This document shows, one piece after another, positions 1 through 15,689 of a DNA stretch of 38,652 nt; position 1 is the first letter of the stretch, and each line of letters begins with the position of its first letter. The notes beneath the pieces were generated by a model, which was not told the origin of the DNA, searched no databases, and worked only from the letters and a program-made list of their open reading frames with translations. The position numbers and the translations under genes were made by a program. This DNA comes from Prochloraceae cyanobacterium (GTDB taxonomy: Bacteria > Cyanobacteriota > Cyanobacteriia > Cyanobacteriales > JASJDA01): NCBI GenBank assembly GCA_030065755.1, contig JASJDA010000033.1:1-38652 (forward strand). The letters run 5' to 3'.

Positions 1-466
1 ATTGACGCAGAAAATTGATGAGGCTTAAACCATCTTGATTTCTCGCAGCTCTATAAGCAGCAGAGCGAATTGCATATTTACCATTTTGACTTCCTGGAAG
101 ATTAATGACTTTGCCGACTTGGGTGAGTATTTCTTCCCCGATGGGGGTGTGCAAGAAGCGATTTAGTTGAATGGGATTGATATTTTGTTGGAGTTGGAGG
201 GCCTTACGCAACTCCGCTTGTTCTGCTGGCTTCATGCGGTTGAGAACTAAATTGAGACTCTCTTCTTCTACCTGGCCTCCTTTAGCAAACTGTTCGAGAG
301 AATCTAGTTCAACAGATATGGAAGCGCCTTCGTAATTAATGATGAGCTTTTCTGCTGCTTCTACGGGGACAGTAATAGCGGGAATAATTGCCAGTAGTAG
401 AGAGGGAACTAAACTAGACCAGAAAAACTTTGGCGGTGGAGTTGGGGGAGATATTTTTCTTTTCAT
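1..466 (-). CDS. DUF1400-type alpha/beta hydrolase, N-terminal part (runs off window)
   Basis: The reading frame opens with ATG at 466 and stays open to the window edge, giving about 155 residues. It starts MKRKISPPTPPP, followed by a hydrophobic stretch ending in AAEK, which looks like a signal peptide with an export site near residue 38. The next part, reading LIINYEGASISVELDSLEQF, matches the N-terminal DUF1400 region that precedes alpha/beta hydrolase domains in cyanobacterial secreted proteins. The hydrolase domain and its nucleophile lie outside the window, so activity cannot be judged. The upstream 400 bases are non-coding and should hold its promoter. Confidence 0.75.
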   Translation of the reverse strand, partial: MKRKISPPTPPPKFFWSSLVPSLLLAIIPAITVPVEAAEKLIINYEGASISVELDSLEQFAKGGQVEEESLNLVLNRMKPAEQAELRKALQLQQNINPIQLNRFLHTPIGEEILTQVGKVINLPGSQNGKYAIRSAAYRAARNQDGLSLINFLRQ

Positions 467-880
467 AGCATCTTAAGATCGGATATAAGGTTTAACTATT
501 GGGTTAAGACATTTTCTCAAGTTTTTTCCTGAGCGACCAAAACCTTAGCTTTAGTATGTCCTAACCCAATCGCGTAGCGCCATACTTGGGGGAATTAACT
601 TGACAGCATTTAACTCTAGCCGCTCGCCCCTCTATTTACCTGTCAGGAAACCGATCAAAACTTACGCCACAATTGACAAAAGTTCATAAATCTCTATTTA
701 ATCTCCTCTGAATCTAATACTTTTAGGCAATCATTATTAAACCGAATTATTTTTTCCTGGGGTAAAACGGAAAAGGTTAATCATACTTTTTCTTACTTTT
801 TTTCCTACTTTTTCATACTTATAAATTAGCAAAATAGAGAGATAATAAGAGTAGATTTGTTCCCAAACAATTATGATGTC
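467..880. other. Intergenic region, no gene seen
   Basis: No credible coding frame was seen on either strand. The region is AT-rich and contains the A/T-tract repeat at 782-825. It probably carries the promoter of the minus-strand DUF1400 gene. It holds no recognisable upstream part of the GH13 stump that follows the MITE-like element. Confidence 0.5.
782..825. repeat. Tandem CATACTTTTT-type repeat, 4 units
   Basis: Four degenerate copies of a decamer (CATACTTTTT, CTTACTTTTTTT, CCTACTTTTT, CATACTTATA) lie head to tail at a 10-12 base period. A second array of the same unit is at 25771-25815. In both places the array is followed within about 40 bases by an AATAGAGAGATAATAA or ACGCGATAATAAAAAATAG-like stretch. 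T-tracts repeated at about one helical turn are expected to bend DNA, so a promoter-architecture role is possible. Confidence 0.55.
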
Positions 881-1016
881 ATACCATTTCTCAAAAGTAA
901 CTGGAGAGATAAGAAATACTTTTTATTAATAAAAAAAGTTCAAATCCCTCTGTTCCCTATTCCCTATTCCCTATTCCCTGTTCTCTAAGTCTCTCGTTAT
1001 TTTCGAGAATTGGTAT
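881..1016. mobile_element. MITE-like element with imperfect terminal inverted repeats
   Basis: The left end reads ATACCATTTCTCAAAAGTAAC. The reverse complement of the right end reads ATACCAATTCTCGAAAATAAC, giving roughly 30-base imperfect terminal inverted repeats. The interior carries AATACTTTTTATTAATAAAA and tandem ATTCCCT heptamers. A partial inverted copy sharing one end and the interior is at 20207-20286. It encodes nothing. Its right end abuts the first recognisable codon of a truncated phosphorylase gene. Confidence 0.6.
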
Positions 1017-1321
1017 CAGTAGAGGGGATTCCAGCCTTTTACATCCACAGTTTGGTAGCTACGCGCAATCATCACGAAGATGTGGAAAAAACGGGAAAAA
1101 AACGCGCTATTAACCGTCGCAAGTTGAATTACGAAGAATTAGAACAAATGCTGAGGGATCCTAATTCTACCGAGTCGATCGTCTTGAAGGAATTATCTAA
1201 ACGGATTCAAATTCGTCGTCAGAAAGCTTTTCATCCCAATGCTACTCAATATACTCTTCATCCCCTAAACAATGCTATATTTGCCTTCTGGAGACAGAGT
1301 ATTTATCGGGAACAGAATTAA
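1013..1321 (+). pseudogene. C-terminal stump of a GH13_18 sugar phosphorylase
   Basis: The open frame encodes about 102 residues with GIPAFYIHSLVATRN, EKTGKKRAINRRK and a final QAFHP-like segment (KAFHPNATQYTLHP). This pattern is typical of the C-terminal end of GH13 subfamily 18 glycoside phosphorylases (sucrose or glucosylglycerate phosphorylase type), which are normally about 500 residues or more. The catalytic barrel is absent. There is no proper start: the only upstream initiator is a TTG inside the MITE-like element's right end. I read it as a dead 3' fragment left by insertion or deletion at the element. The exact substrate class is not decidable from this tail. Confidence 0.7.
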
Positions 1322-1327
1322 AGCAGT

Positions 1328-1364
1328 TATATTCTACCAATTACAAATAATTTGGTAGAATATA
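1328..1364. terminator. Hairpin between GH13 stump and hypB, likely terminator
   Basis: A perfect 13-base inverted repeat (TATATTCTACCAA / TTGGTAGAATATA) with an 11-base loop lies between two convergent coding ends. The stem is AT-rich and has no strong T run, so efficiency is uncertain. Its position fits the end of the hox-hyp transcription unit. Confidence 0.5.
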
Positions 1365-1395
1365 AATTATTGTTTGCCAAATCATCAATAAAAAA

Positions 1396-2193
1396 CTATA
1401 CTTTTACAGCTTGAATTTTACTCAAACGATCGGCAAGATAAGAGTACCAATCTTTCATCCCCTCACCAGTACGTGCCGAAACTTCAAAAATAGTAGCTTG
1501 AGGTGCTACCTTTTGAATATTAGCGATCGCTTCTTCTCGTTCAAATCCTACTACTTCAGCAATGTCAATTTTACTAACAATTACTACATCAGCACTCTTG
1601 AAAATAGTAGGGTATTTGAGTGGTTTATCTTCCCCTTCAGTCACGCAATGTAAGACCACTCGCGAGTCTTCACCTAGGTCGTAAGCAGCAGGACAAACTA
1701 AATTACCTACATTCTCAATAATTAGCAGATCGAGAGCATCTAAGTCTAGTTTTTTTGCGGCTCTTTGAACCATATCAGCTTCTAGGTGACAAACATTACC
1801 AGTAGTAATTTGTACTGCAGGAGTGCCAACCGATCGCAACTTTTGTGCGTCTTTATCAGTTTCTAGATCGCCGACAATAACCCCAGCGCGGATATCTTTA
1901 CCTAAGTCGGAGAAGGTACGTTGAAGAAAAGTTGTTTTACCAGAACCAGGGGAAGATAGTACGTTGAGAACTAATAGTTCTTTTGCTAGAAAATAGCCTC
2001 GGTTGCGTTCGGCAAGACGATCGTTTTTCTCTAAAATTGACTGAGCAATTGTTATAGTTTGGCGATTGTTGCCATTATGATGGTGGTGATGGCGATCGTG
2101 GTGATGGTCGTGGCGATCGTCGTGAGATTGAGGAGGAGTTTGAGTATGAATGCCAACTTCTCCAACAACGCTGCAGCCGCAATTTTTGCACAT
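1396..2193 (-). CDS. hypB: Hydrogenase nickel-insertion GTPase HypB
   Basis: HypB is the SIMIBI-class GTPase that helps load nickel into the large subunit of NiFe-hydrogenases together with HypA. The 265-residue product starts MCKNCGCS, the high-affinity metal site region. It then has a long His/Asp-rich stretch (about residues 22-40, [16 protein letters not shown]) suited to nickel storage. The P-loop SSPGSGKTT follows at about residues 81-89, and a [13 protein letters not shown] segment and SKID base-recognition motif come later. It ends the hox-hyp string, 3 bases after hypA, so the two are very likely co-translated. It serves HoxH encoded in the same operon. Confidence 0.96.
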
Positions 2194-2196
2194 AAA

Positions 2197-2562
2197 TTAA
2201 GATACCTCCAAAGATACTAGCTCAATTTCTTTTCCAGCAAGGACTTGTTCGCTCAGTTTTCCACACAAAGGACACTCGTATATTGGTTGATTTAACTCGT
2301 CTATTGGTTTTATTGGTTGAAAATCTAAGTCACATTTAGAACAATGACAAATGACTGGTACTGTCTCTATTTCTAATTTAGCGTCCTCGGCAATTGTTCC
2401 TTTAGTAACTACGTCAAAAGCGAATTCTAATGCTTCTGGGACTACACCGGAGTCTCTACCTATGCGCATTTTTAGCCAATGAATTTGACTTGCACCTTTA
2501 GTGTAGGCGCGATCTAAAGCAATATCGAGAGTTTGTGTAATGATGCCTACTTCGTGTGTCAT
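2197..2562 (-). CDS. hypA: Hydrogenase nickel-insertion metallochaperone HypA
   Basis: HypA passes nickel to the hydrogenase large subunit with HypB. The 121-residue product has the C-terminal zinc site CHCSKC ... CPLCGK. The N-terminus is unusual: it reads MTHEVGI, while HypA proteins usually begin MHE, with the amino terminus and His2 binding nickel. If Met1 is removed, as expected before Thr, the mature chain would be Thr-His-Glu and the His would again be residue 2. The ATG at 2562 is the only sensible start. It lies 3 bases upstream of hypB and 75 bases downstream of hoxW. Confidence 0.95.
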   Translation of the reverse strand: MTHEVGIITQTLDIALDRAYTKGASQIHWLKMRIGRDSGVVPEALEFAFDVVTKGTIAEDAKLEIETVPVICHCSKCDLDFQPIKPIDELNQPIYECPLCGKLSEQVLAGKEIELVSLEVS

Positions 2563-2637
2563 TTTTTTGTTTGTTGTTAATTGTTGCTTTTTACGTTGTT
2601 AATAGGTAGACTACAATCAGTAGTTTCAGGCTAAGTA

Positions 2638-3087
2638 TTAACTATTTTTTAATCGTTCAATTTGCTCGATCGCTTCGTTAATAGCGCGTTTGGTAACAGG
2701 AGACAATTGTTCGCCGAACTCGAAATTTACTGCAGGTATGAGAATCCACCAAGCAGGAGGTACGTAGTTATATACGGCTTGAGTGAGAGATAGAAGCGAT
2801 CGCGGATTTGCTGTATGTCCTAAACCAACATTATTAGTAGCAAGAGGTTCGATTTTTTCTACAATTAGAGTCAATGACTCCGATGGATTTGATACTAGCG
2901 CATCAACAAAAATTACACTGCTGGAATTAGCTATATCTTCAGCTAGTTCGGGAGTTAATTGGTGGCGACAAAGCGATCGCACGTTTGACCAGCCTTGTTT
3001 TGCTACCGCTTCCGATACTAACTGTCCCGCACCGTCATCGCTGCGCAGAGTATTCCCATAGCCAATTACCAACACTTCCGACTTCAT
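2638..3087 (-). CDS. hoxW: Hydrogenase maturation protease HoxW
   Basis: This is the endopeptidase of the HycI/HoxW type that removes the C-terminal tail of the NiFe-hydrogenase large subunit after nickel insertion. The 149-residue protein begins MKSEVLVIGYGNTLRSDDGA, the family glycine-rich start with the conserved acidic residue that senses nickel. It also has the FVDAL segment and a GLGHTANP stretch carrying the conserved His. It lies 126 bases downstream of hoxH, its expected substrate, and upstream of hypA. Confidence 0.93.
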   Translation of the reverse strand: MKSEVLVIGYGNTLRSDDGAGQLVSEAVAKQGWSNVRSLCRHQLTPELAEDIANSSSVIFVDALVSNPSESLTLIVEKIEPLATNNVGLGHTANPRSLLSLTQAVYNYVPPAWWILIPAVNFEFGEQLSPVTKRAINEAIEQIERLKNS

Positions 3088-3213
3088 GATTTGACCTTGT
3101 ATATTGCGATGGCGTAGCGCCTCGCCAAAAGCGAGATCGGGAAAAGGACAAAAATCGTTCTTTTCTTCTCGAACCTTTAACCTTTTCCCAACTAACGTCT
3201 GCTGCGAACTTTA

Positions 3214-4638
3214 TTAGTTTCGCCAAACCTCATCTAATATCTGACCATCAAATCCTACTAGCTCGATATGGAGTGGCATTTGTCCTACTGCGTGAGTAGT
3301 GCAACCCAGACAAGGATCGAAGCTGCGAATACCTGCTTCAACGCGGTTTAGAATATCTTCAGGAATTTGCTTTCCGTGGATGTAATGTTTGGCGATTTGA
3401 GCCACTGTTTTGTTCATCGAAATATTATTTTGACCAGTGGCAATAATTAAATTAACTTTTTGAATTAGACCGTTTTCGTCTACTTTGTAATGGTGGAATA
3501 ATGTACCTCTTGGCGCTTCACTGACCCCCATACCTTCTAGTTGATTAATACCTGCAGTGGCGCGGATGCGTGTGGATGTTATTTCGGGGTCGTCGAGTAG
3601 TTGCTCGATCTTTTCTAGAGATGCCAAAATTTCTATTAAACGAGCGTAGTTGAAGTAGAAAGAAGAAGTCGCTACTCTTCCAGCACGATCGCGGTATTCC
3701 AACAACTCCCGATCGGCTTCTGTCGCATTCATCCTAGAACAGATATTCAATCTTGCCAAAGGGCCTACTCTATAATTCCCTTCAGGATAACCCCAAGGTT
3801 TGTAGTAGGGGAATTTTAGATAAGTACCCTTTTCAACAGCTTCGCCGATAAAATCTTGATAGTTATCTTCGCTAAGATTGTCAGCAACAATGTTACCGTC
3901 GCTATCAGTTACGCGAATTTTTCCTTCGTAGTGTTCCCAAGCGCCATCGTCATCAACTAATCCCATGAATAGAGAAGGGAAATTACCAAAGACATTTGTT
4001 TCTTCTGGATATTTATCGAGAACTTCTTTGAATATATCGAGGTTCTTTTTAATAGTCGTAAAAGATTCGGGGAGGCGATCGCGTATCCAAGTGCGCATTT
4101 CTTCTGTGAGAGGAAATTCCATGCCTCCTGGAACTATCCCTCTGGAATGAATCTTTCTATCTCCTAAAAATTCTATTATTTTTTGACCGAATTGTCGCAG
4201 ACGAATGCCACCTCTTGCTAATTCTGGCTCGGCTTCCATCAAGCCAAAAATGTTGCGTTTTTCTGGATCGTAATCCCATCCTAATAAAAAGTCGGGGCTG
4301 CACAAATGAAAAAAGGCAAGAGAGTGAGACTGAACAATTTGGGCAGCATTAATCAATCTTCTCAGTTTTTTTGCTGCGGGAGGTATGGTTACAGCCTGAA
4401 TTTTTTCTACTGTTTTAGAAGATGCTATTAAATGGCTTACAGGACATATACCGCAAATTCTCGCTGTAATCCCCGCCATTTCCCACATGGGGCGACCTTC
4501 GCAAAATTTTTCAAACCCTCTATATTCACTGACGTGAAAGTGAGCATTCTCCACTTCACCTCGATCGTCTAAATAGATCGATATTTTTCCATGGCCGCCA
4601 ATGCGACTAACTGGTTCAATTAAAATTTTATCAGACAT
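3214..4638 (-). CDS. hoxH: NiFe-hydrogenase large subunit HoxH
   Basis: HoxH is the catalytic NiFe subunit of the bidirectional, NAD(P)H/ferredoxin-linked cyanobacterial hydrogenase. The 474-residue product has both pairs of NiFe-ligand cysteines: RICGICPVSH near residue 60-70 and DPCLGCTTH near the C-terminus. The chain continues 25 residues past His449 (AVGQMPLHIELVGFDGQI and on). This is the tail removed by HoxW. A strong ribosome site, AGGAGGACC, precedes ATG at 4638. The neighbours are the CBS-CP12 gene upstream and hoxW downstream. Length and motifs are normal, so the enzyme should be functional. Confidence 0.97.
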   Translation of the reverse strand: MSDKILIEPVSRIGGHGKISIYLDDRGEVENAHFHVSEYRGFEKFCEGRPMWEMAGITARICGICPVSHLIASSKTVEKIQAVTIPPAAKKLRRLINAAQIVQSHSLAFFHLCSPDFLLGWDYDPEKRNIFGLMEAEPELARGGIRLRQFGQKIIEFLGDRKIHSRGIVPGGMEFPLTEEMRTWIRDRLPESFTTIKKNLDIFKEVLDKYPEETNVFGNFPSLFMGLVDDDGAWEHYEGKIRVTDSDGNIVADNLSEDNYQDFIGEAVEKGTYLKFPYYKPWGYPEGNYRVGPLARLNICSRMNATEADRELLEYRDRAGRVATSSFYFNYARLIEILASLEKIEQLLDDPEITSTRIRATAGINQLEGMGVSEAPRGTLFHHYKVDENGLIQKVNLIIATGQNNISMNKTVAQIAKHYIHGKQIPEDILNRVEAGIRSFDPCLGCTTHAVGQMPLHIELVGFDGQILDEVWRN

Positions 4639-4700
4639 TTAGGTCCTCCTTTTTTTGTTAGTTAGTTATTCTCATTTTTCGATTTCCAATTCTTAATTAC

Positions 4701-5321
4701 CTACCCACTACACCAGTTGTCATACATCGCTTCCATTGCTTCTGGATAGTCCTCGCAGTATTCTTCAAAAAAGGTTTTTTCTAGTTTTTTAGCTTGCTGG
4801 TGTGCTGCTTCGATTTGAATTTCTTCAACTGCGTGCCAAGCTGTTATACAATCAGAAGATGTATGCCCTTTTTCCTGACATATTCGGCGAGCCTCTTCAA
4901 CTGCTTTTTCGATTTCTCGTTCTAAAATTACTTCTTTAGGTTGCTCTACAAAATTGCTTTTTTCTAAAATGTCAGTAAAAGAAATAATTCCTAGCAGTTT
5001 CTCTTGAATTACAGGAGCGCAACGTATGCCCGTACGAATTAACAAACGGGCTGCATATTCCACTCCTAGATCGGGATTGACCACTATACAAGGCTTGGTC
5101 ATAATTTGGTAGACGCGCATTTTATTGGGGTCGAGTCCAAATGCGGCTACTTTCTCGATAATATCTGTATCAGTGACGATGCCATATGCGTCCTCATCGT
5201 GGCGGCGATCGACAATTAAAGCCCGCAAGCCCCTTTGTCTCATAATTTTAACGGCGAAAGCTACTTTCGCCGAGCCAGGAATACAGATCGCATCTTGGGT
5301 CATTATCTCTGCTACTTTCAT
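4701..5321 (-). CDS. CBS-CP12 fusion protein
   Basis: The 206-residue product carries two CBS motifs (about residues 1-60 and 68-125; MTQDAICIPGSA and MTKPCIVVNPDL starts). A CP12 domain follows (about 136-206). CP12 features seen: VEEARRICQEKG, the core AWHAVEEIQIEAAHQQ (family AWDAVEELQ), and two Cys pairs, C148/C158 and C189/C204. CP12 forms redox-switchable disulphides and in its classical form ties GAPDH and PRK together in the dark. CBS pairs bind adenine nucleotides. CBS-CP12 fusions are known in cyanobacteria. Its location between hoxY and hoxH suggests that this copy links the hydrogenase to redox or energy status. The target is inferred, not shown. Confidence 0.9.
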   Translation of the reverse strand: MKVAEIMTQDAICIPGSAKVAFAVKIMRQRGLRALIVDRRHDEDAYGIVTDTDIIEKVAAFGLDPNKMRVYQIMTKPCIVVNPDLGVEYAARLLIRTGIRCAPVIQEKLLGIISFTDILEKSNFVEQPKEVILEREIEKAVEEARRICQEKGHTSSDCITAWHAVEEIQIEAAHQQAKKLEKTFFEEYCEDYPEAMEAMYDNWCSG

Positions 5322-5387
5322 CTTTAGTTTGTAGTTAGTAGTTAGTAGGTGGTAATCTTTTAATGGATAACTACTAACTAATAACCT

Positions 5388-5939
5388 TTAGCCAAACTTA
5401 ATCATTTCTCTTCCTTCCATCACTGGTAGTTTGTTATTTAGTAATGGTTCGATCGCTGCTTTTATTCTCTCTGCTTCTGGAGGACAACCAGGAATAAATA
5501 AATCTACGGGGACTACTTCGTGGACTGGCATAACGCGATCGAGCAATTTAGGTAATATTCCTTCATCATCGTATGGAGATTGAGGATTGAGATCGGCAAG
5601 TTCCCAATAAGTTCTTTTCAAAACAGGTTCGGCACTGCCGTATTTATTCCGCAACCCCGATACGTTAGAAGTTACCGCACAATCTCCTAAAGAAATGAGT
5701 AATTTAGTATTTTTTCTGACTTGGTGAATAAATTCTAAGTGTTCTTCATTTCCAATTGCTCCTTCTACCACGCAAACGTCCACATTTTCGGGATATTCTT
5801 TGCGATCGACAAGGGCTGGAGAATATACCACGTCTACATATTGTGCTAAGTCAAATAGCCATTCGTCGGTGTCTAAAAAGGACATGTGACAGCCCGCACA
5901 GCCAGCTACCCAAATTGTGGCAAATCTTATTTTTTTCAT
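5388..5939 (-). CDS. hoxY: NiFe-hydrogenase small subunit HoxY
   Basis: HoxY is the small electron-transfer subunit that pairs with HoxH and holds the proximal iron-sulfur cluster. The 183-residue product begins MKKIRFATIWVAGCAGCHMS with the CxxC of the proximal cluster. It continues with VVEGAIGNEEH, LGDCAV and a C-terminal GCPPEAERIKAAIEPLL segment with the last ligand cysteine. It is normal in length for the soluble Hox type. It sits 66 bases upstream of the CBS-CP12 gene and about 150 bases downstream of a decayed second hoxY copy. Confidence 0.96.
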   Translation of the reverse strand: MKKIRFATIWVAGCAGCHMSFLDTDEWLFDLAQYVDVVYSPALVDRKEYPENVDVCVVEGAIGNEEHLEFIHQVRKNTKLLISLGDCAVTSNVSGLRNKYGSAEPVLKRTYWELADLNPQSPYDDEGILPKLLDRVMPVHEVVPVDLFIPGCPPEAERIKAAIEPLLNNKLPVMEGREMIKFG

Positions 5940-6085
5940 TGTTAGTTGTTAATTGTTAGCTATTACCTCTGTAAAAACGTTTTGCGGTCAGTTTCTCGAC
6001 CTGACTTTTTTCATTTACTCAATTAGTTGTTGGATCTTTTCTACGACGGGATCCATCTAGCTATCTATTGAATTTAAGCACCATC

Positions 6086-6261
6086 TCAGCCTGTCATTAC
6101 TGGTTCTTTACCTTCTAATAATGCTTCGATCGCTCCTTCAACTAAGCGACAAAATCTACCTTGTCTGCTAATTCGATCGTTCAGTTGTCTGGGTCGATAA
6201 AAGACATGTGACAGCCCGCACAACCAAATAGCCAAACTGTAAAGAATCTTATCTCGTCCAT
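6086..6261 (-). pseudogene. hoxY: Remnant of a second hoxY, with central deletion
   Basis: From ATG at 6261 a frame reads MDEIRFFTVWLFGCAGCHMS FID and stops at 6181. It is identical to the intact HoxY start at 16 of 23 positions, including GCAGCHMSF. Shortly downstream, in another frame, comes RQGRFCRLVEGAIEALLEGK EPVMTG ending at 6086, which resembles a HoxY-type C-terminus (compare AAIEPLLNNKLPVMEG in the intact gene). The roughly 130 middle residues are gone. The remnant start overlaps the end of hoxU by 13 bases, as expected for a formerly coupled hoxU-hoxY pair. So a second hoxY once stood here and has decayed. Confidence 0.8.
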
Positions 6262-6965
6262 TGTTTTTTCTCTCGAGCAGTACTCAAGAATTCTAAACTG
6301 CCGCGATCGCGTTTCATTACTGCTACTGGGGTGCTTTTATGGAAAATTGACCCTGTAGGACAAGCATTGACGCATTTACCGCAGGAGGTACAAGCGTCTA
6401 CTTCTCCCCAAGGCTGATTTAAGCCCGAAATTATTTTACATTCTTCGCCGCGATGAGCTATGTCCCAAACGTGCGCGCCTTCTACTTCGTCGCACACGCG
6501 CACGCAGCGAGTACAGAGGATACAGCGGTTGTGATCGATACCAAACTGGGGATGAGAGATATCTACTGGTTTGTCGGGGAAGCGGTAGGAAAAACGACAA
6601 TGCTCCATACCGACTTCAACGGCTAAATTTTGCAATTCGCAGTTTCCATTAACCACGCAGACAGAGCAAACGTGGTTTCCTTCGGCGAATAATAGTTCCA
6701 TATTCATGCGCCGATATTCTTTTAATTTAGCCGTATTGGTCCTAACTACCATCTCTTCAGCCACTTCGGTAACGCAAGCAGGTAGTAGTTTATTGATTCC
6801 TTCCACTTCTACCATACACATCCGACAAGCACCAATATCTGAAACCCCTTCTAAATGGCACAAAGTGGGTATATAAATACCTGCTTCCTGTGCGGCTTTG
6901 AGGATGGTCAAGCCTTCCTCAACTGCCACATAAATGTCATTAATTTTTAAGGTTTTTACTGCCAT
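6249..6965 (-). CDS. hoxU: Hox diaphorase iron-sulfur subunit HoxU
   Basis: HoxU is the ferredoxin-like NuoG-type subunit that carries electrons between the HoxEF diaphorase and the HoxYH hydrogenase. The 238-residue product has an N-terminal 2Fe-2S domain (CHLEGVSDIGACRMC ... C), a His-Cys3 4Fe-4S site (HVCSVCVVNGNCELQ) and two 4Fe-4S motifs (CILCTRCVRVC and CTSCGKCVNACP). A good ribosome site, AAGGAG, precedes ATG at 6965. It begins 20 bases after fdhA, so in this organism it is transcribed behind the formate dehydrogenase genes. Its 3' end overlaps the hoxY remnant. Confidence 0.96.
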   Translation of the reverse strand: MAVKTLKINDIYVAVEEGLTILKAAQEAGIYIPTLCHLEGVSDIGACRMCMVEVEGINKLLPACVTEVAEEMVVRTNTAKLKEYRRMNMELLFAEGNHVCSVCVVNGNCELQNLAVEVGMEHCRFSYRFPDKPVDISHPQFGIDHNRCILCTRCVRVCDEVEGAHVWDIAHRGEECKIISGLNQPWGEVDACTSCGKCVNACPTGSIFHKSTPVAVMKRDRGSLEFLSTAREKKQWTR

Positions 6966-6985
6966 GTATACTCCTTGTTAATTTT

Positions 6986-9661
6986 CTAATTAGATTTGGT
7001 ACGGGTCAGACGAACCGCAATTGCTTTATACTGGGGACACTTAGACTGAGGATCTAAGTGAGGTCCAGTAACTCGGTTGGCATGGGTTTCTGGGTAGTGG
7101 AAGGAAAGAAACAGGGTACCAGGAGCGATCCGCCTCGATCTTTTCGCTTTAACGGTGGTAGCGCCCCAGCGACTTTCGAGGTTAACCTTTTCTCCGTCGG
7201 AGATCGCTGCGCTGCTGGCATCTTGAGGATGAATTTCGAGAACATCTTCGGGAACTATTTCTTGCTGGGGGGTGCGGCGGGTCATAGTACCGACATTGTA
7301 ATGATCTAATAGCCGTCCGGTAATCAGCAAAAAAGGGAATCCTTCTATCCCGTGTTCGGGGCTTGGTTCGTAGTCGATAGTAACCAGTTTGCCCTTACCC
7401 CTGAGAAAACCATCGGCGTGGACTGTTTCAGTTCCCTGATGTTCTGGCGAAGGGCAAGGCCATTGTAGCCCATCTCGATCGAGTCGATCGTAACTAACGC
7501 CGCCAAAGAGTTGGGGCGCTACTTTGGCGATTTCGTCCATCACTTCTGCGGGGTTTTGGTAGTTCCAACTAGCGCCCATGGCGATCGCCACGTCGCGAAT
7601 TGCTTCCCAATCGGGTCGCGCTTCTCCTGGTGGCGGTACTGCAGGTTTAACGTGCTGTATGCGACGCTCGCCATTAGTAAAGGTGCCTTCTTGCTCTAGC
7701 GCGCCTGCTGCGGGTAAAATTATGTGGGCGTAGCGGGCAGTTTCAGAGAAGAATAACTCCTGAACCACCAGAAAATCTAGCCTAGAGAGAGCTTTTCTTA
7801 CCTGGGTTTCGTTTGGGTCGCTTTGAACCACATCTTCCCCTTGTATCCAGAGAGCGCGAATTTTACCTTCGGCAGCCGCTTCGATCGCTTCTGGAATCGT
7901 CAGTCCTGGCTCTTCTGGCGGAACTGAACCCCAAAGCTTTTGCAAGCGTTGGCGCAGTTCTGGGTTATTCAAGGGCTGATACCCAGTTATGAGGTTGGGC
8001 ATACCGCCCATATCCGCATTTCCCTGGACGTTGTTTTGTCCCCGCAAGGGCAACATCCCCGCACCAGGTTTTCCGATGCTTCCCGTAAGCATACCCAGGT
8101 TGCACAGGGTCATTACTGAAGCAGTGCCTTGGGTTAATTCGGATAAGCCTAGACCGTGTACGAATAGAGTGGGGCCACAACTGCCGATTAAACAACCTGC
8201 TTTGCGGATTTTCTCCGATTCAACTCCGGTAAGTTTTGCTACTCGATCGAGGGACAAGTTTTTGGCGAAAGTACGGAATTCCTCATAGCCTTCGACCCGA
8301 TCGCCCAGATAAGCTAGATCGCTGAAGTTTTCTTCTATTAACACTTTGGCTATGGCGTTAAATAAAAGGACGTTGGTGCCAGGAAGCAATTGTAGGTGTA
8401 AGTCGGCGTACTCTGCTAGTTCAATCCGGCGAGGATCGATTACCACCAGAGGCGTGCCGTTAAGTACAGCTTGCTTGATTCTTGCTCCAACTATCGGATG
8501 AGCCTCGGTAGGATTCGCACCAGCGATGACAATGCAGTTAGCTTGCTCAATATCCACATAGGATGCAGAGGCTGCACCTGCTCCAGTAACGGTTCGCAGT
8601 CCTAGGGCGGTGGAGGAGTGGCAAACTCGCGCGCAGCAATCTACATTATTAGTACCGATCGCAGTGCGGAAAAGTTTCTGCAACAGGTAAGCTGCTTCGT
8701 TGGTGGAACGGGACGAGCTAAAAGCACCCAGAGCATCTGGAGTGTATTGCTGGCTTATTTCCAGCAGTTTGCCGGCGATCGTCTTTATGGCTTCATCCCA
8801 AGATATGGGTTGAAATTCCTCTCCTACCCGCTTCAATGGCTCGGTAAGGCGGTCTGGAGAGTAATGGTAGCTGTGAGCGTACCTTCCCTTAACGCAAAGG
8901 TGCCCCCGATTGACGGCGGCATCTTCTACACCCCCAATGCGCAACACCCGACCTCTAGCAGATTCCACTTGCACGCGACAGCCAACGCCACAATAGCCGC
9001 ACACAGTTTGGGTAATTGAGTCTGCGGGAGTTGGATCGAGGCGATCGCGATCGCTAATGGCTGCGGTAGGACAAAGATCTACGCAAGCCCCGCAAGCCAC
9101 GCAAGGGCTTTCTACAAAGCTTTCTCCTGCTCCGAAAAGCAGGTTGGTAGAGGGACCGCGACTGCCGATGCCGTAAACAAACTGTCCTTGAATTTGCTCG
9201 CAGGTATTTAAGCAGAGCCTACAGTTGATGCAGAGGTCGGGATCGAAGCGTAAATAGGGATGGCTGTCGTCTACTTTGGAGCCATTAGTAGCAGCAGGAA
9301 TTTGCAAATCGTAGTCTTTGAGTAATTCAATAAACTGGCTTTCCTTGCCTTTGTCCTGAAATCTCGCTCCTTTACCGCCATCTAGGTAAAGAGAGAGAAG
9401 TTCCCGCCGCAAAGCTTCTAACTTAGAGGTATGGGTTTTTATTTCCATTCCAGGTTGTATTTGGGTGTGGCAAGCAGCCGCTGGCCGCTTACTTCGGTTG
9501 GTTTCCACCAAGCACATGCGGCATCTCCCTTCTGGCTCCATTCTTTCGTCGTAACAAAGAGTGGGAATTGTAATACCGTTCCGTTTGGCCGCTTCCAGAA
9601 TCGTCTCGTCGTTCCTAATTTCAATACTTCGTCCGTCAATTTTTGCTTGCTGTGAATTCAT
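6986..9661 (-). CDS. fdhA: Formate dehydrogenase alpha subunit (Mo/W, Cys type)
   Basis: This 891-residue protein is the catalytic subunit of a soluble, probably NAD-linked formate dehydrogenase. Domains in order: a 2Fe-2S ferredoxin domain (CYDERMEPEGRCRMC), a two-cluster ferredoxin domain (CINCRLCLNTC, CVACGACVDLCP, about residues 150-215), the 4Fe-4S site of the molybdopterin fold (CGYCGVGC), then the bis-MGD catalytic domain with CCARVCHSSTALG. Cys347 there takes the place of selenocysteine as the metal ligand. The His-Cys3 cluster found between the first two domains in many relatives is not visible. The start at 9661 (MNSQQAK) was chosen because it overlaps the stop of the upstream subunit by one base (TAATG). 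A longer frame runs back to 9748 but lies inside that gene. The electron path is inferred to run to FdhB and perhaps HoxFU. Confidence 0.9.
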   Translation of the reverse strand: MNSQQAKIDGRSIEIRNDETILEAAKRNGITIPTLCYDERMEPEGRCRMCLVETNRSKRPAAACHTQIQPGMEIKTHTSKLEALRRELLSLYLDGGKGARFQDKGKESQFIELLKDYDLQIPAATNGSKVDDSHPYLRFDPDLCINCRLCLNTCEQIQGQFVYGIGSRGPSTNLLFGAGESFVESPCVACGACVDLCPTAAISDRDRLDPTPADSITQTVCGYCGVGCRVQVESARGRVLRIGGVEDAAVNRGHLCVKGRYAHSYHYSPDRLTEPLKRVGEEFQPISWDEAIKTIAGKLLEISQQYTPDALGAFSSSRSTNEAAYLLQKLFRTAIGTNNVDCCARVCHSSTALGLRTVTGAGAASASYVDIEQANCIVIAGANPTEAHPIVGARIKQAVLNGTPLVVIDPRRIELAEYADLHLQLLPGTNVLLFNAIAKVLIEENFSDLAYLGDRVEGYEEFRTFAKNLSLDRVAKLTGVESEKIRKAGCLIGSCGPTLFVHGLGLSELTQGTASVMTLCNLGMLTGSIGKPGAGMLPLRGQNNVQGNADMGGMPNLITGYQPLNNPELRQRLQKLWGSVPPEEPGLTIPEAIEAAAEGKIRALWIQGEDVVQSDPNETQVRKALSRLDFLVVQELFFSETARYAHIILPAAGALEQEGTFTNGERRIQHVKPAVPPPGEARPDWEAIRDVAIAMGASWNYQNPAEVMDEIAKVAPQLFGGVSYDRLDRDGLQWPCPSPEHQGTETVHADGFLRGKGKLVTIDYEPSPEHGIEGFPFLLITGRLLDHYNVGTMTRRTPQQEIVPEDVLEIHPQDASSAAISDGEKVNLESRWGATTVKAKRSRRIAPGTLFLSFHYPETHANRVTGPHLDPQSKCPQYKAIAVRLTRTKSN

Positions 9662-11325
9662 TACCCCCCTCCTGCTGTAAAAATGCGATCGCCAAAATGC
9701 TCGATTATCTGACGCATCGGGCCTGTTATATATTGTCCGAAGGCACACAAGCTGGCTTCTTCCATGACTTCAAAAAGTCCCTCTAGTTGCGCTCGGCATT
9801 TGGGATCGGCGCTTTGATTTCGCACTAAATTCCAAGCTTTTTGGGAACCTAAACTACAAGGGACGCACTTGCCGCAGGACTCGTCCATCATAAAGCGGAG
9901 CCAGTGTTCCAATAAGGCTGAATAGTCCGTACCTTCTAATAGGGCTACCATCCCGCCGTGTCCTAACTGGATCCCCCTTTCTGCCATAGCCCCGTAGCAG
10001 ATAGGAACGTCCCACTCTTCGGGCAGCAATAAACTGCCCATAGGTCCTCCTAACAGCAAAGCTTCGATCGTTTTTCCCCCTGCACCTCCACCTGCCTCTT
10101 CTATTACCTGGCGTACAGTAGTTCCAAACTCTACCTCCACGATGCCAGGAGAGGCAAAACCGTGGTTCAAGCACAGAGCTTTGCTGCCGGAACTGTAAGC
10201 AGTACCCGTTGCTGCATAAGCTTCGGCTCCTTTCTTGACGATCGCGGAGATATTTACTAAGGTCTCCACGTTATTGACTACTGTCGGCTTGCCATATAGC
10301 CCTGCTTCTACGGGATAGGGCGGCTTGATGCGCACTTCTCCCCGCAGCCCTTCAATGGCGTTGAGCATGGCAGTTTCTTCGCCGCAAACGTAACTGCCCA
10401 TACCAGGGAAAACCGAGATTTCAAAGGAAAAATTGCTTCCCAGTACTGAAGATCCCAAAATTCCTGCGTCTTGCGCTTCGGCGATCGCCTCCTGCATCCG
10501 CTTAATTGCTGTAGGGTATTCCGAACGAATAAAAACGATCCCTTGGCTAGCACCTACCCCATAGCCGCACAACAGCAGACCTTCGATAACGCCGTGGGGG
10601 TCGTTTTCCATTAGGACGCGATCGATAAAAGAACCTGGATCGCCTTCGTCCCCGTTGGCGATCGCGTAGCGAGTTTCCCCAGGACATTCGGCGCAGCGCC
10701 GCCATTTAGTTCCTGTAGGAAAACCTGCCCCCCCTCTTCCTCTTTCTCCAGACCTTTCTACTAGCGAAAGTAGCTCTTCTGGAGAGCTTTGCAGGGCTTG
10801 GGCTAAGGCGGAATAGACTCCTGCCGATCGCGCTTTTTCCAGGCTAGAATAATTAGCCCCTGCCCGTTTGGTTACTGTCGGTTCGGGAGCGAGGCAGCGC
10901 ACGGATAAGGGCGGTGTTTCTGCTGTGGCTGGGGTTTTCTCTCCTGCTACTAAAGCTGTGGCTTGTTGGCTACAAATTACTTCATCCTGAGCAGTCAATA
11001 AAGTAGGGGAGCGATCGCAATAACCCAAGCAGTAAGCAGCTTTACAGTTTTTGCGTTTTTGTAGTTCTTGCTGTAACTCTTCTGCTCCCGCCAGCATACA
11101 GGAAGTCCCCTGACAAACTCGAATCGCCTCGCGATCTTCGTGCAGATCGCTGTAATAAGAAATTACACTTTTGACCGTAGCTTCTGGAAGTGCTACTTGT
11201 CCTGCTAGTTCTCGGATCTCTGATGCTTCCAAGGGATGAGATTTTGACTGCAGGCGATCGCGGATCCGTAACAGAGGCGAAACTTCTCCGTGATGAGTTT
11301 CCCAATATCTTCTCAGAGATTTCAT
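9661..11325 (-). CDS. fdhB: Formate dehydrogenase beta subunit, NuoE-NuoF fusion
   Basis: The 554-residue protein joins a NuoE/HoxE-like domain (about residues 1-130; 2Fe-2S cysteines CQGTSC and CLGYC) to a NuoF/HoxF-like domain (about 150-554). The second part has the GRGGAGFPTGTKW and NGDEGDPGSFIDR flavin/NAD site signatures and a C-terminal 4Fe-4S motif, ESCGKCVPC ... C. Such subunits take electrons from the Mo/W subunit to NAD. In many organisms the two parts are separate genes (for example FdsG and FdsB); here they are one. It is 36 bases behind the MFS gene and overlaps fdhA. It is distinct from hoxE and hoxF, which are present separately upstream. Confidence 0.9.
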   Translation of the reverse strand: MKSLRRYWETHHGEVSPLLRIRDRLQSKSHPLEASEIRELAGQVALPEATVKSVISYYSDLHEDREAIRVCQGTSCMLAGAEELQQELQKRKNCKAAYCLGYCDRSPTLLTAQDEVICSQQATALVAGEKTPATAETPPLSVRCLAPEPTVTKRAGANYSSLEKARSAGVYSALAQALQSSPEELLSLVERSGERGRGGAGFPTGTKWRRCAECPGETRYAIANGDEGDPGSFIDRVLMENDPHGVIEGLLLCGYGVGASQGIVFIRSEYPTAIKRMQEAIAEAQDAGILGSSVLGSNFSFEISVFPGMGSYVCGEETAMLNAIEGLRGEVRIKPPYPVEAGLYGKPTVVNNVETLVNISAIVKKGAEAYAATGTAYSSGSKALCLNHGFASPGIVEVEFGTTVRQVIEEAGGGAGGKTIEALLLGGPMGSLLLPEEWDVPICYGAMAERGIQLGHGGMVALLEGTDYSALLEHWLRFMMDESCGKCVPCSLGSQKAWNLVRNQSADPKCRAQLEGLFEVMEEASLCAFGQYITGPMRQIIEHFGDRIFTAGGG

Positions 11326-11361
11326 GTTTTTAATTATGTTTTTTAGGTTTTAAAAAGTTGT

Positions 11362-12684
11362 TTAATGAGGTACTTTTTCCGATCTGTGCCGATCGATTTG
11401 GTCTCGATCGTGTTTGCGTAATGGTCTTTTATAGGCTCTACTCAAAATAAAACCTACTAATAACAGACCTGATGCTACATAAAGTGCCAGGTTGCAAGTT
11501 CCAGTTGCCTGCTTCATCCAGGCAAAAATAAACGGACCAACCACTCCAGCCGCACCCCATGCCGTCAGCATAGTGCCATAGATTCTGCCAATATTTTTAG
11601 AGCCAAAAGCGTCAGCAGCAAAAGCTGGCATAGTGGCAAAACCACCTCCATAACAGGCTAGGAGATAACAAGCAACAACTGCGAATAAATAATAGCTATT
11701 GATTTCTGGAATAATCAAATAAAGAACAGCCTGGCTGAGAAACATAATCGAAAAAACAGTTTTTCTGCCAATAGCATCGGATATCCACGCCCAAAAAAGT
11801 CTGCCCAGACCGTTAAAAATAGAGGCAATAGCAACTACAAATCCGCCAGCAGCATCAACAGCAATTAACATTTCTTCTGGAGATAAATTGCTTTGTCCGA
11901 TCGCTGGACACAGATCCCTAGCTAGAGGAGAAAGCTGAGAGATTAAGCCAATACCTGCGGTAACGTTCAAAAACAGCATTGCCCACAGCATCCACCATTG
12001 GGGAGATTTAGTTGCTTCTGAGAAACCATATGATTCAGCGTGAGAAGTTGCTAATTCTGATTTGGGAGTGAAATTTGCTGGCTGCCATCCAGAAGGAGGA
12101 TTTTCAAACAATTGAGCCGCTAATACTACCAGAATTAAAAAGATTGCTCCCCAGATATAAAGAGTATTAGGCACTCCCCAAGTTATTATGTTAGCTGGAG
12201 CAATTAAACCCATAAAAAATGCTCCGGCACCAAATCCCATGACGGCTAAACCCGTTACCAAACCTCTTTTATCGGGAAACCAGCGAATTAGAGTGGCGAT
12301 CGGGGTGACGTAACCAAAACCGTTGCCCAAGCCTCCCAACACTCCATAACCCAGGTAGAGAATAATTATATTCTGCATCTGGATGCCGACTCCGCCAATG
12401 ATAGTGCCCAACCCAAATAGAATTCCACCTATAGTGGCGACCAACTTGGGGCCTTTTTTATCTACAAGTATTCCTCCAAATGCTGCGGCAATACCAATTA
12501 TGCCGATGCAAATCATAAAAGTAGCAGAAGTTGCCACTTCATCCCAACCTTGATTGGCAACTAAGTCATTTTTAAATACGCTCCAGCTATAGACTGTGCC
12601 CAAACAGAGTTGAATGACGATGGCAGCAATGGCGATAAACCATCTTTTACTTTCTAAGTTGCGATCGACAATGTTAATGTTCAT
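11362..12684 (-). CDS. MFS carrier, oxalate/formate antiporter family
   Basis: The 440-residue membrane protein has about 12 hydrophobic segments and the OFA-family look: LCLGTVYSWSVFKNDL in helix 1, DKKGPK after helix 2, and GLGNGFGYVTPIATLIRWFP DKRGL in the helix 4 region. Family members exchange oxalate and formate or carry other small monocarboxylates such as pyruvate or lactate. Substrate cannot be read from sequence, but its place between hoxF and the formate dehydrogenase genes makes formate the best guess. The ribosome site AGGAGGAAAG is strong. The gap to hoxF is 111 bases, enough for an internal promoter. Confidence 0.85.
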   Translation of the reverse strand: MNINIVDRNLESKRWFIAIAAIVIQLCLGTVYSWSVFKNDLVANQGWDEVATSATFMICIGIIGIAAAFGGILVDKKGPKLVATIGGILFGLGTIIGGVGIQMQNIIILYLGYGVLGGLGNGFGYVTPIATLIRWFPDKRGLVTGLAVMGFGAGAFFMGLIAPANIITWGVPNTLYIWGAIFLILVVLAAQLFENPPSGWQPANFTPKSELATSHAESYGFSEATKSPQWWMLWAMLFLNVTAGIGLISQLSPLARDLCPAIGQSNLSPEEMLIAVDAAGGFVVAIASIFNGLGRLFWAWISDAIGRKTVFSIMFLSQAVLYLIIPEINSYYLFAVVACYLLACYGGGFATMPAFAADAFGSKNIGRIYGTMLTAWGAAGVVGPFIFAWMKQATGTCNLALYVASGLLLVGFILSRAYKRPLRKHDRDQIDRHRSEKVPH

Positions 12685-12795
12685 AGTTACTTTCCTCCTC
12701 TTTTGAGGATTTCAGAGGAAGTTTGACTTTTCCTCTGGCTTAAGGATTTGACCGTAACTCTTTCTCGATCGGATCGGTATTATTTCCTATGTCTC

Positions 12796-14379
12796 TTAAA
12801 TTAATTCTAAATACTCTTCGCGGAAATAGCGCAAAGTACTTAAAACTGGATTGGGCGCACTTTGTCCCAACCCGCACAAACTCATATCTCTAACCATGTG
12901 ACACAGTGCTTCTAATTTGTCTATATCTGCTATATTTGCTCGTTTGTGGTAAATTTTATCGAGTATTTCGTACATTTGTACCGTACCCGCACGACAGGGA
13001 ACGCATTTACCGCAGGACTCCTGTTGGCAAAATTCCATGTAAAATTTGGCAACATCTACCATGTTGGTGTTGTTGTCGATAACGATTATGCCCCCAGAAC
13101 CCATGATGGTGCCTAACTCTCTTAGGTGTTCGTAGTCTACAGGAGTATCTAAAGCATCAGCAGGAATGCAACCCCCTGATGGCCCGCCTGTTTGCACGGC
13201 TTTAACTACACCGCCATTAGATACGCCGCCGCCCATTTCTTCGACTATTTGCCGCACTGTAGTACCCATGGGTACTTCAATTAAACCAGTATTTTTGACT
13301 TTGCCAGTGAGAGCAAATACTTTTGTCCCTTTACTTTTTTCCGTACCTATGCTTCTGTACCAATCTCCTCCTTCGCGGACGATCGGGGCTATATTGGCGA
13401 AGGTTTCGACGTTGTTAATCAGGGTAGGACATCCCCACAAACCCGATTCTGCTGGATAGGGAGGACGAGGACGAGGATTGCCTCGTTTTCCCTCTACGGA
13501 GGCAATTAGAGCCGTTTCTTCCCCGCAAACAAAAGCCCCCGCACCTACTCGAATATCGATTTTGAAGTCAAAGGGAGAATCAAAGATTTGACTGCCGAGG
13601 ATGCCTAGTTTTTTGGCTTGTTTTATCGCTTTTTGCAGGCGATCGATGGCCAGGGGATATTCAGCGCGAATATAGATGTAGCCACTATTGGCACCCACTG
13701 CATAGGCAGCGATCGCCATTCCTTCTAAAACTCTGTGAGGGTCGCTTTCTAATACTGCCCGATCCATGAAAGCACCTGGGTCGCCTTCGTCGGCGTTACA
13801 GATCACGTATTTTTGCTCTCCTGACATTTTGGCTACTGTCGCCCACTTCAACCCAGTGGGATAACCAGCACCGCCCCTTCCTCGCAAACCACTATGACTT
13901 AGTTCGTCTATGACTTCATTTGGACTCATCTCGTAGATGACCCGATATAGTGGCTGATAGCCTCCAGCAGCGATATACTCTTCAATCTTTTCTGGATTGA
14001 TTTTGCCGCTATTTTCTAAAACAACGGGCATCTGACGGGTGAAGAAGGGATGATTGGCATTTCCAGTTTTTGCTGTTGCCTCTTCCCCTTTTAGCACGGC
14101 TACGATCGAAGCTGCATCTTCAGGTTTAACTTGTTCGTAGAGAGTTCCTGCAGGTTCGACTTGTACCAATGGTCCGCGACCGCAAAATTTCATGCAGCCT
14201 ACCTTGGCTACTTCTACTGTCTCCTGCAAGCCCGCTTCTTTTACTGCTATTTCGAGCTTATCTTTGACAGCAGAGGAGTTCGAGGATATACATCCTGCTG
14301 CATTGCAACAATGGATGCGGATTTTTTTAGCACTATTACGCTGTTTTTCTCCGATCTCTACGAGTTCTTTTAAATCCAT
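12796..14379 (-). CDS. hoxF: Hox diaphorase flavoprotein HoxF
   Basis: HoxF binds FMN and NAD(P)(H) in the diaphorase half of the bidirectional hydrogenase. The 527-residue product has an N-terminal thioredoxin-like 2Fe-2S domain (CCNAAGC ... CMKFCGRGP). It then has the NuoF core with [36 protein letters not shown] and [10 protein letters not shown], and the 4Fe-4S motif [13 protein letters not shown] near the end. Length is normal. It starts 17 bases after hoxE behind a GGGAGG ribosome site. In most cyanobacterial hox operons hoxU follows closely; here it is more than 5 kb away, with the formate module between. Confidence 0.96.
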
Positions 14380-14396
14380 TTTTTATATCCTCCCAC

Positions 14397-14903
14397 TCAA
14401 ACTGGCAAACAATTTTTTACTTTTTCGAGTACGTCAGATGGTATTTGTTTACCGCACACTCTGCCGTCGATAACTGCTGCTGGTGCAATACCACAAGCAC
14501 CTATACATCGTGCCGTCATCAGAGAAACTTTGCCATCGGGCGTGGTTTCTCCTGGACGCAGGTTGACATCTTCTTCTAAGACTTTGAGCAGTTCGTCGGC
14601 ACCTTTAACGTAGCAAGCAGTTCCCATACAAATGACGAATGTATGCTCGCCCTTCGGTTTTAGCTGAAAGAGATGGTAAAAGGTGGCCACTCCATAGACT
14701 CGACTGAGTGGCATTTTTAGTTTTTGGGCAACGTATTTCAATACTTCTTCTTCTAGATAGCCGAAGATTTCCTGGGCTTTATGCAGTATTTCAATCAACG
14801 CATCTTGATGATATTGATGGCGTTTTATAGCGTTTTCTAATACTTTGAAGCGCTTATCTTCAACAGATTTGTTATCCTTGCGATCGACATCTACAGATTG
14901 CAT
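14397..14903 (-). CDS. hoxE: Hox diaphorase 2Fe-2S subunit HoxE
   Basis: HoxE is the NuoE-like 2Fe-2S subunit of the cyanobacterial diaphorase, thought to help exchange electrons with partners such as ferredoxin. The 168-residue protein has the helical N-terminal domain ending in LSRVYGVATFYHLFQLKPKG. The cluster cysteines are CMGTAC and CIGACGIAPAA. It is the first gene of the minus-strand hox operon; the promoter must lie in the 414-base divergent region upstream. Confidence 0.96.
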   Translation of the reverse strand: MQSVDVDRKDNKSVEDKRFKVLENAIKRHQYHQDALIEILHKAQEIFGYLEEEVLKYVAQKLKMPLSRVYGVATFYHLFQLKPKGEHTFVICMGTACYVKGADELLKVLEEDVNLRPGETTPDGKVSLMTARCIGACGIAPAAVIDGRVCGKQIPSDVLEKVKNCLPV

Positions 14904-15317
14904 AGAATTTTCAGATCAAAGTGTTCTAATTTGAGGCTTTTGCTCGCTCGGAGTAAAATTTAGCTAATTTTACCAAGTATTTTTTTTTACTACTTGTCTT
15001 TATTAACCCTATTTATATTGTTATTCTTGAGTTTTTCCCATCCCGAACAATTTTATTATTCTTTATTCTTTCCTTAACGAAGGCGTAACAGGTTTTCTAG
15101 TAGTTTTTTTCTGATTCATTCTAGTAGCTAGTAAAAATTTATAAAAATTATCAAAAAGTAATCTAGTAACACAAAAAAGATAAAAAATCTATTGCAGATT
15201 TCCTACTACTCATTACATCTTTTACTGTGAGGTAGGAAAAAGACAAACAAAAGGGAACTTTATTCACAAACTTTGAGTCAATAATTAATGTAGAACTAAA
15301 TATTGTTTAGATAATTA
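14904..15317. promoter_or_regulatory. Divergent promoter region hoxE / yidD, with CTAGTA repeats
   Basis: No coding frame is seen in these 414 AT-rich bases. The heptamer TCTAGTA occurs at 15096-15102, 15120-15126 and 15162-15168, and another CTAGTA starts at 15128. Two of these share TTCTAGTAG, spaced 24 bases apart. This clustering could mark an operator for the hox operon. I did not find a convincing LexA-type palindrome, although LexA and AbrB-type proteins are known hox regulators in other cyanobacteria. Start sites were not resolvable. Confidence 0.4.
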
Positions 15318-15689
15318 ATGCAAATGAGTGCATATTCCCTTGATTCTGCTTTGAGACAGTTAGCGACGGCTTCTATTAGTGGGTATCAAAAATACATCTC
15401 TCCCTACAAAGGATTTCGTTGCGCTCACAGAGCTTTATACGGGGGTGAATCTTGCTCTGAATATGTCAAAAATGTAATTGCTAGACGGGGATTAGTAACA
15501 GGTATTAAATCCTCCCGTGAAAGATTTAGAGAGTGTGCATATGCTTATAATATACTGAGCGATCGACTGCCTAATTTACAAAATCATCCTACCACTACTT
15601 ACGGCTTGTGCGACGGACAAGATGATGTAAAAATTTGCTGTTGTGCTTTCGATGCTTGTCCTTGTAATGGCATGAAAATAAACGAATAA
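15318..15689 (+). CDS. yidD: YidD-like membrane protein insertion factor, Cys-rich tail
   Basis: The 123-residue product contains ISGYQKYISPYKGFRCAHRA followed by ESCSEYVKNVIARRG and RFRECAYAY. This is the pattern of the YidD/DUF37 family (FYQRFISP ... CSEY ... G ... RRLLRC), small membrane-associated proteins linked to YidC-dependent insertion. The variant here has a longer insert before CSEY and a C-terminal Cys cluster (KICCCAFDACPC) not found in short YidD proteins. A second ATG is 6 bases downstream. It is transcribed away from hoxE and followed by a strong hairpin. Confidence 0.7.
   Translation: MQMSAYSLDSALRQLATASISGYQKYISPYKGFRCAHRALYGGESCSEYVKNVIARRGLVTGIKSSRERFRECAYAYNILSDRLPNLQNHPTTTYGLCDGQDDVKICCCAFDACPCNGMKINE

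Follow-up and report, generated by a model that had tools for sequence, protein, structure and literature searches.

Recurrent linkage of CBS-CP12 genes to hox genes, seen from a cyanobacterial hydrogenase operon

The window, by which we mean the whole 38,652-nucleotide stretch of Prochloraceae DNA analysed (contig JASJDA010000033.1), contains a minus-strand run of genes in the order hoxE, hoxF, an MFS transporter gene, fdhB, fdhA, hoxU, hoxY, CBS-CP12, hoxH, hoxW, hypA and hypB. The names HoxE, HoxU, HypA and HypB are based on scores above the NCBIfam equivalog cut-offs and that of the protease on a superfamily cut-off, whereas the assignments of HoxF, HoxY and HoxH come from Pfam matches, PDB relatives and gene position. 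The features are as follows, all on the minus strand.

14397 to 14903: hoxE (NCBIfam HoxE above cut-off)
12796 to 14379: hoxF (Pfam, PDB relatives)
11362 to 12684: MFS transporter (L-lactate SfMCT model above cut-off, oxalate/formate models below)
9661 to 11325: fdhB-like NuoE/NuoF fusion (Pfam; no NCBIfam model above cut-off)
6986 to 9748: fdhA, formate dehydrogenase alpha with a HoxU-like N-terminus (TIGR01591 above cut-off)
6249 to 6965: hoxU (NCBIfam HoxU above cut-off)
6084 to 6246: decayed, internally deleted hoxY remnant
5388 to 5939: hoxY, hydrogenase small subunit (Pfam, position)
4701 to 5321: CBS-CP12 gene, 206 aa (ORF list, Pfam)
5160 to 5183: first CBS adenosine-type motif GIVTDTDI, aa 47-54 (alignment)
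4968 to 4991: second CBS adenosine-type motif GIISFTDI, aa 111-118 (alignment)
4719 to 4925: CP12 domain, aa 133-201 (Pfam)
4848 to 4880: N-terminal CP12 Cys pair, C148 to C158
4704 to 4715: C-terminal WCSG tail, aa 203-206 (sequence)
3214 to 4638: hoxH, hydrogenase large subunit (Pfam, position)
2638 to 3087: hydrogenase maturation protease in the hoxW position (superfamily model above cut-off)
2197 to 2562: hypA (NCBIfam)
1396 to 2193: hypB (NCBIfam)

The earlier note had placed the CBS-CP12 gene between hoxY and hoxH, and it lies exactly there, starting at an ATG 66 nt past the hoxY stop and ending 62 nt ahead of the hoxH start. No Rfam match at gathering score was found in positions 1-16000 of the window, and promoter and terminator scans did no better than on shuffled sequence.

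Pairs of CBS domains bind adenylates through adenosine-type motifs that serve in nucleotide binding, and the Cys pairs of CP12 are thioredoxin-linked switches. The 206-residue product has two CBS stretches (4e-25) followed by a CP12 domain (4e-24), both exceeding the Pfam cut-offs, the order that defines the CBS-CP12 fusion family. Both CBS motifs are retained and are putative AMP-binding sites. The CP12 part is less conventional than had been thought. Of the two Cys pairs that the earlier note took to be kept, the N-terminal one (C148/C158) is intact, but of the C-terminal pair, defined as CxxxPxxxxC in the available part of PMC9406205, C189 alone remains and the fourth position, 198, is Ala. 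Similarly, the supposed AWxAVEE core is present as AWHAVEE(I), where His has replaced the Asp of AWD_VEEL. The protein thus departs from canonical CP12 in its core, in its C-terminal pair, and in not being a stand-alone polypeptide of about 80 residues. Its C-terminus, WCSG, brings a different Cys, C204. A redox switch seems plausible only at the N-terminal pair.

The linkage of CBS-CP12 to hydrogenase genes was examined in 386 genomes of the phylum. From the 157 genomes with any CBS-CP12 match, we kept 126 places in 85 genomes (long matches, E 6e-53 or better); from the 118 with any HoxH match, 86 were kept (at least 57% identity) and 32 with fragmentary or distant matches were dropped. CBS-CP12 lies within 5 kb of hoxH in 31 of the 86 hoxH genomes, and in 30 of these it is upstream, on the same strand and 31-1068 nt away; the exception (G135) has it downstream of hoxW. 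With one or two CBS-CP12 genes per genome of ~5 Mb, chance should, by our estimate, bring the two genes this close in well under one of 86 genomes. The 31 linked genomes span seven family codes, although 24 belong to a single family, f6. The 31 linked loci that were fetched are those of this set other than the window, 30 in all, together with G328, where hoxH begins a separate contig; hoxY is directly ahead of CBS-CP12, with no ORF of 70 aa or more between them, in all but G135. Stenomitos frigidus ULC18 is a named example (hoxE, F, U, Y, CBS-CP12, hoxH), and the hoxY-CBS-CP12-hoxH layout is also found in G058 and G083, which we suspect are of the same genus as strain 7002; SYNPCC7002_A0199 is, we assume, likewise located in the hox operon. 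The placement is therefore not unique to this strain; uniqueness was what the earlier note had named as fatal to its idea, and its choice of the hydrogenase as the relevant context is supported across the seven family codes and Stenomitos frigidus. Because the pairing with hydrogenase genes recurs, the protein probably tunes hydrogen and fermentation metabolism and not only the Calvin cycle. Fifty of the 86 hoxH genomes have no hox-type CBS-CP12; Hox thus works without it, and it is not required everywhere. In one genome (G385) the linked CBS-CP12, hoxH and hoxF are all broken and the CBS-CP12 paralogue is intact; in another (G245) hoxH is split, yet the linked CBS-CP12 reading frame is open.

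In a tree of full-length CBS-CP12 sequences, 31 of 32 hox-linked rows, including the window and G328, and all 11 WCSG rows fall into one group of 37, which we call hox-type, with a support (92/73) under the level that we starred; the hox-linked outsider is G135. Second trees were made after cutting the last 14 residues so that the tail could not pull rows together. For these, 20 of the 24 rows of the distant group and the broken G385 copy were left out, and 112 rows were thinned to 65 at 88% identity; in an enlarged version, two sequences (L331, L334) were shortened by a start-codon search and two others, one from the same genus (L341) and one duplicate (L328), were not added. Without the tail, the window groups only with WCSG-tailed rows (97/93 with 10 rows, 98/93 with 14), a Nostoc/Stenomitos group stands apart (100/98), and so does a group of Hydrococcus, Pleurocapsales, G456 and G561 (92/86, not starred), which includes G070, a row without a WCSG tail. 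One further row, G286, joins no group firmly, and the hox-type rows are therefore three groups and one single row and not one clade. AU tests did not reject a single clade (p 0.13 with 25 rows, 0.43 with 23 rows and 0.29 with G135 added), but a placement of the window row next to the paralogue from the same genome was not rejected either (p 0.17), and the tests thus have little power here. The tail may be an ancestral trait of a hox-type branch whose resolution is poor, or it may have arisen more than once.

The N-terminal Cys pair is kept in 37/37 of the hox-type group, and the canonical CxxxPxxxxC is found in 0/37, compared with 18/65 in the other main group. Within the window's nine-member subclade, C204 is Cys in all nine members and C189 in only three, so C189 and C204 are not a conserved pair. 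The Asp of AWD has been lost in seven of these nine; it is kept in 28/28 of the Nostoc-type subclade (of which 26 rows are hox-linked), in 65/65 of the other main group, and in 12/24 of the distant group.

The WCSG tail (once FCSG) occurs in at least 27 distinct genomes: 11 from the 386-genome sample, five named relatives, and at least 11 from an order-level search. Three pairs of assemblies (G387/G607, G386/G619 and G388/G554) were each counted once because contig coordinates or flanking genes coincide. Among the matches listed, full-length HoxH is present in 25 of the 27 tailed genomes (G305 and G653 are those without), and the 27 tailed copies listed include 10 in hox clusters, two (Hydrococcus rivularis and G599) with hoxU ending 13 nt upstream and a full hoxH elsewhere, and 13 in hoxH genomes but with none seen beside hox genes; in total, 15 of those listed lie away from hox genes. 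For one of the 13 (LEGE 06147), the contig begins 517 nt upstream of the gene. The hoxU adjoining CBS-CP12 in Hydrococcus rivularis is an additional one in that genome, and its score exceeds the HoxU cut-off. The tailed copy of G456, one of the 10 in hox clusters, has hoxU and hoxY upstream, and its contig ends after CBS-CP12. No neighbour shared by the unlinked WCSG copies was seen, except for hoxU in two genomes and a hybrid-cluster-protein gene in one. As a yardstick, 25 of the 48 genomes that have only other CBS-CP12 types carry hoxH, against 15 of the first 16 tailed genomes identified (Fisher p 0.003, genomes treated as independent). Within family f6, a hox-type copy is present in 26 of 29 hoxH genomes and in one of 13 without hoxH (p 5e-7, again treating genomes as independent, with both columns hand-counted from the CBS-CP12 and HoxH match lists). 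Note that genomes are not truly independent, and that joint loss is built into such tests for the linked cases.

The closest solved structure found by phmmer is the CBS-CP12 entry 5nmu, matched over its full length (E 5e-74), and the six best Foldseek matches are all chains of hexameric CBS-CP12 entries (61-62% identity, TM 0.63-0.65, rmsd 5.1-6.6 A). The query was an AlphaFold2 monomer model built from 39 sequences with a mean pLDDT of 92.7, although its last six residues average 58; the TM and rmsd values indicate that the helices of the lone chain are arranged differently from those of hexamer chains. A CBS protein deposited as "Dehydrogenase" (PDB 9sr9) was considered as a hydrogenase lead and dropped, as only its CBS repeats matched and it was absent from the best 60 HoxF and FdhA matches. 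We take 5nmu, 5npl and 5nvd to be the Microcystis CBS-CP12 of Hackenberg et al. (2018). The window protein shares with 5nmu the domain order, the CBS motifs and the N-terminal Cys pair; however, 5nmu has the C-terminal pair and AWD, whereas the window copy is located among hox genes and has AWH, no fourth Cys, and WCSG. The C-terminus of 5nmu rather resembles those of a set of eight f5 loci whose products end in CRIY and near which a gene with a thioredoxin motif is found. The available part of PMC9406205 describes the Microcystis protein as a hexamer that binds AMP and inhibits the activation of phosphoribulokinase (PRK) without forming a ternary complex with GAPDH.

The window's genome (8.46 Mb in 455 contigs) has five CP12 genes, two small and three CBS-CP12s. 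One small CP12 is of the textbook type, with 77 residues, four Cys, and a CRIYED C-terminus, so the usual GAPDH/PRK switch would presumably operate in this strain without need of the hox-linked protein. This small CP12, like those of the 6gfo/6gve set, is homologous to the window protein over the 69 residues of the CP12 domain and shares its N-terminal Cys pair; the window protein differs in its CBS fusion, its lack of the C-terminal CxxxPxxxxC, AWH for AWD, and its other C-terminus.

A full formate dehydrogenase alpha gene and a fused NuoE/F-type beta gene are present inside the hox operon (6986-11325, minus strand), and because the N-terminus of FdhA is HoxU-like, the enzyme might share the diaphorase. 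The earlier note had offered the formate enzyme as an alternative client. As a general client it is rejected because FdhA more than 70% identical was found in only two of 386 genomes, the window's and G245, and is beside hox genes in the window's alone. The remaining listed matches have 32-37% identity, lack the N-terminal domain, and presumably are NarB-type reductases. The other close FdhA (L292, G245:C1:1172680-1175436; 72%) contains one in-frame TGA, which may stand for selenocysteine, a frameshift or decay. Elsewhere, the space between hoxF and hoxU holds a D-LDH-like gene (L342), a hybrid cluster protein gene (L338), or a Uma2 gene (L072), where the window has MFS and fdhBA; judged by these contents, it resembles a site for cargo, most of it genes with fermentative or anaerobic roles. 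A hybrid cluster protein gene in this slot is also reported for Lyngbya in the available part of PMC2674450.

The history of the locus can be partly read from G401, a genome of the same genus, which has no CBS-CP12 in its hox operon. There (L342, G401:C280, 924-9983), the order is hoxE, hoxF, a 2-hydroxyacid/D-lactate-dehydrogenase-like gene with no NCBIfam model above cut-off, hoxU, hoxY1, hoxH1, hoxY2, hoxH2 and hoxW. Of two CBS-CP12 matches in this genome, the one examined has no WCSG tail. The tandem hoxYH copies follow a single hoxEFU set and are 61-63% identical, and both HoxH proteins have the CGIC and CLGC motifs; the arrangement would suggest one diaphorase serving two hydrogenase dimers. 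The genes of the window are closer to copy 2 (79% identity for hoxY, 80% for hoxH) than to copy 1 (62-65%). In the window, 309 nt separate hoxU from hoxY, and this gap contains the hoxY remnant (64% over 33 aa with one stop; E 2e-12 in a comparison with HoxY from L072), which is nearer to hoxY1 of G401 than to hoxY2. The window lineage has thus probably lost its first hoxYH pair; in addition, it or an ancestor probably gained CBS-CP12 between hoxY2 and hoxH2, unless G401 lost the gene.

The proximity of this family to hydrogenase genes is already in print. In Anabaena 7120, alr0765 appears as a "hypothetical protein" next after hoxY among the bidirectional hydrogenase genes (PMC4915528, in part); from the Nostocaceae-like layout we infer that it is a CBS-CP12. 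The expression table there gives alr0765 values of 0.0 and +1.0 where hoxY has -0.9 and +0.7. A [NiFe]-hydrogenase neighbourhood table includes a cluster of 58 genes as "CBS domain; CBS 100%, CP12 24%" (PMC12727194, in part). Both sources thus have CBS or CBS-CP12 genes near hydrogenase genes as table rows, but the available text of neither comments on CP12, the tail, or function. In the literature covered on CP12 or CBS-CP12 together with hydrogenase, neither a hydrogenase client nor the tail was discussed; that coverage did not extend to Stanley 2013 or Hackenberg 2018. The abstract of the latter is said to mention several distinct gene neighbourhoods, among which the hox one may already figure. 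What would be new is the tailed, core-altered, hox-linked branch.

We prefer, tentatively and at a little short of an even chance, the reading that the window gene represents a hydrogenase-associated CBS-CP12 branch through which adenylate level and thiol redox state modulate Hox, the client being suggested by gene context. The gene would probably be expressed together with those of HoxEFUYH, and its product would most likely act on the Hox complex, with the HoxU/HoxYH region as the best guess, when cells are in the dark or short of oxygen. Two inputs, the AMP/ATP ratio sensed by the CBS pair and the thiol redox state sensed by C148 and C158, would together decide, perhaps in an oligomer, if the client is bound by the CP12 helices and the WCSG tail. 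When AMP rises and thiols shift in low-oxygen dark cells, CBS-CP12 would change state and the electron flow through Hox would be altered, in one direction or the other. In favour of a Hox regulator are the linkage in 31 of 86 hoxH genomes, hoxY directly ahead in 30 of the 31 fetched loci, the common group in the full-length tree, hoxH in 25 of the 27 listed tailed genomes, the contrast within f6, the joint breakage of the gene, hoxH and hoxF in G385, the retained CBS motifs and N-terminal Cys pair, and the separate four-Cys CP12 of the strain. Counted against it are the operon of G401, the 15 of 27 listed tailed copies that are unlinked, the two listed tailed genomes lacking full hoxH, the 50 of 86 hoxH genomes without a hox-type copy, the scattering of hox-type rows over several groups in the tail-free trees, the split hoxH of G245, the action of the Microcystis relative on PRK, and the alr0765 and hoxY values in the available table. 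In a more specific form that we regard as distinctly doubtful, CP12 has been re-aimed: in hox-type CBS-CP12 a WCSG tail took the place of the GAPDH-docking end and binds either the HoxU-containing diaphorase or HoxYH; if true, CP12 would have a client outside the Calvin cycle and hydrogen metabolism would respond directly to AMP/ATP and thiol redox state. To our knowledge, it is not settled how cyanobacteria choose among fixing carbon, fermenting and releasing hydrogen. The hox-linked CBS-CP12, being recurrent, is a specific, small candidate controller of that choice, and it raises the possibility of a CP12 client outside the Calvin cycle.

It is rather unlikely, though worth serious weight, that the protein is still a PRK regulator, its AMP-loaded form slowing PRK activation, and that the hox promoter simply has it made during fermentation so that carbon fixation stays off. 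The similarity to 5nmu, the AMP binding and PRK inhibition of the Microcystis protein, and the unaltered AWD of the Nostoc-type subclade, nearly all of which is hox-linked, are what one would expect of such a regulator; the loss of that Asp from most of the window subclade, when the other main group retains it throughout, is not. In addition, according to the available part of PMC9514657, changing the core of CP12 to AWa_VaaL in Synechocystis abolished its effect on NADPH decay, and A0199, the CBS-CP12 of strain 7002, was no substitute for CP12 there.

An improbable alternative to both a Hox regulator and a PRK regulator is that the protein assists assembly or stability of HoxYH or HoxU, or provides a docking site for thioredoxin, and is not controlled by nucleotides. 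Its place directly after hoxY in the window and in 30 of the 31 fetched loci would suit an assembly factor, as would its position next to hoxU and away from hoxH in the two Hydrococcus-like genomes, but a pure scaffold would have no need of the conserved CBS nucleotide motifs. Also counted against this alternative, an ORF with a thioredoxin-type motif lies within 4.5 kb in 0/36 hox-type loci, 16/65 loci of the other main group, and 0/24 of the distant group. Least probable of all is that the gene is a passenger, one common among cyanobacteria that entered a hox operon on several occasions without a functional tie: the same-genus operon lacking it, the varied genes (hcp, ldh-like, fdh, Uma2) in the hoxF-hoxU slot and the absence of a single clade in the tail-free analyses all fit, but not the same slot and strand in 30 of 31 loci, the tail conserved in at least 27 genomes, or a presence that tracks hoxH within f6.

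Two minor observations concern individual tailed copies. In G456 (L335, 2608-4326), a group II intron reverse transcriptase ORF is found between hoxY and CBS-CP12, and in Cyanothece UBA12306 (L237, 6275-8624), the unlinked WCSG CBS-CP12 starts 85 nt past the hybrid cluster protein gene.
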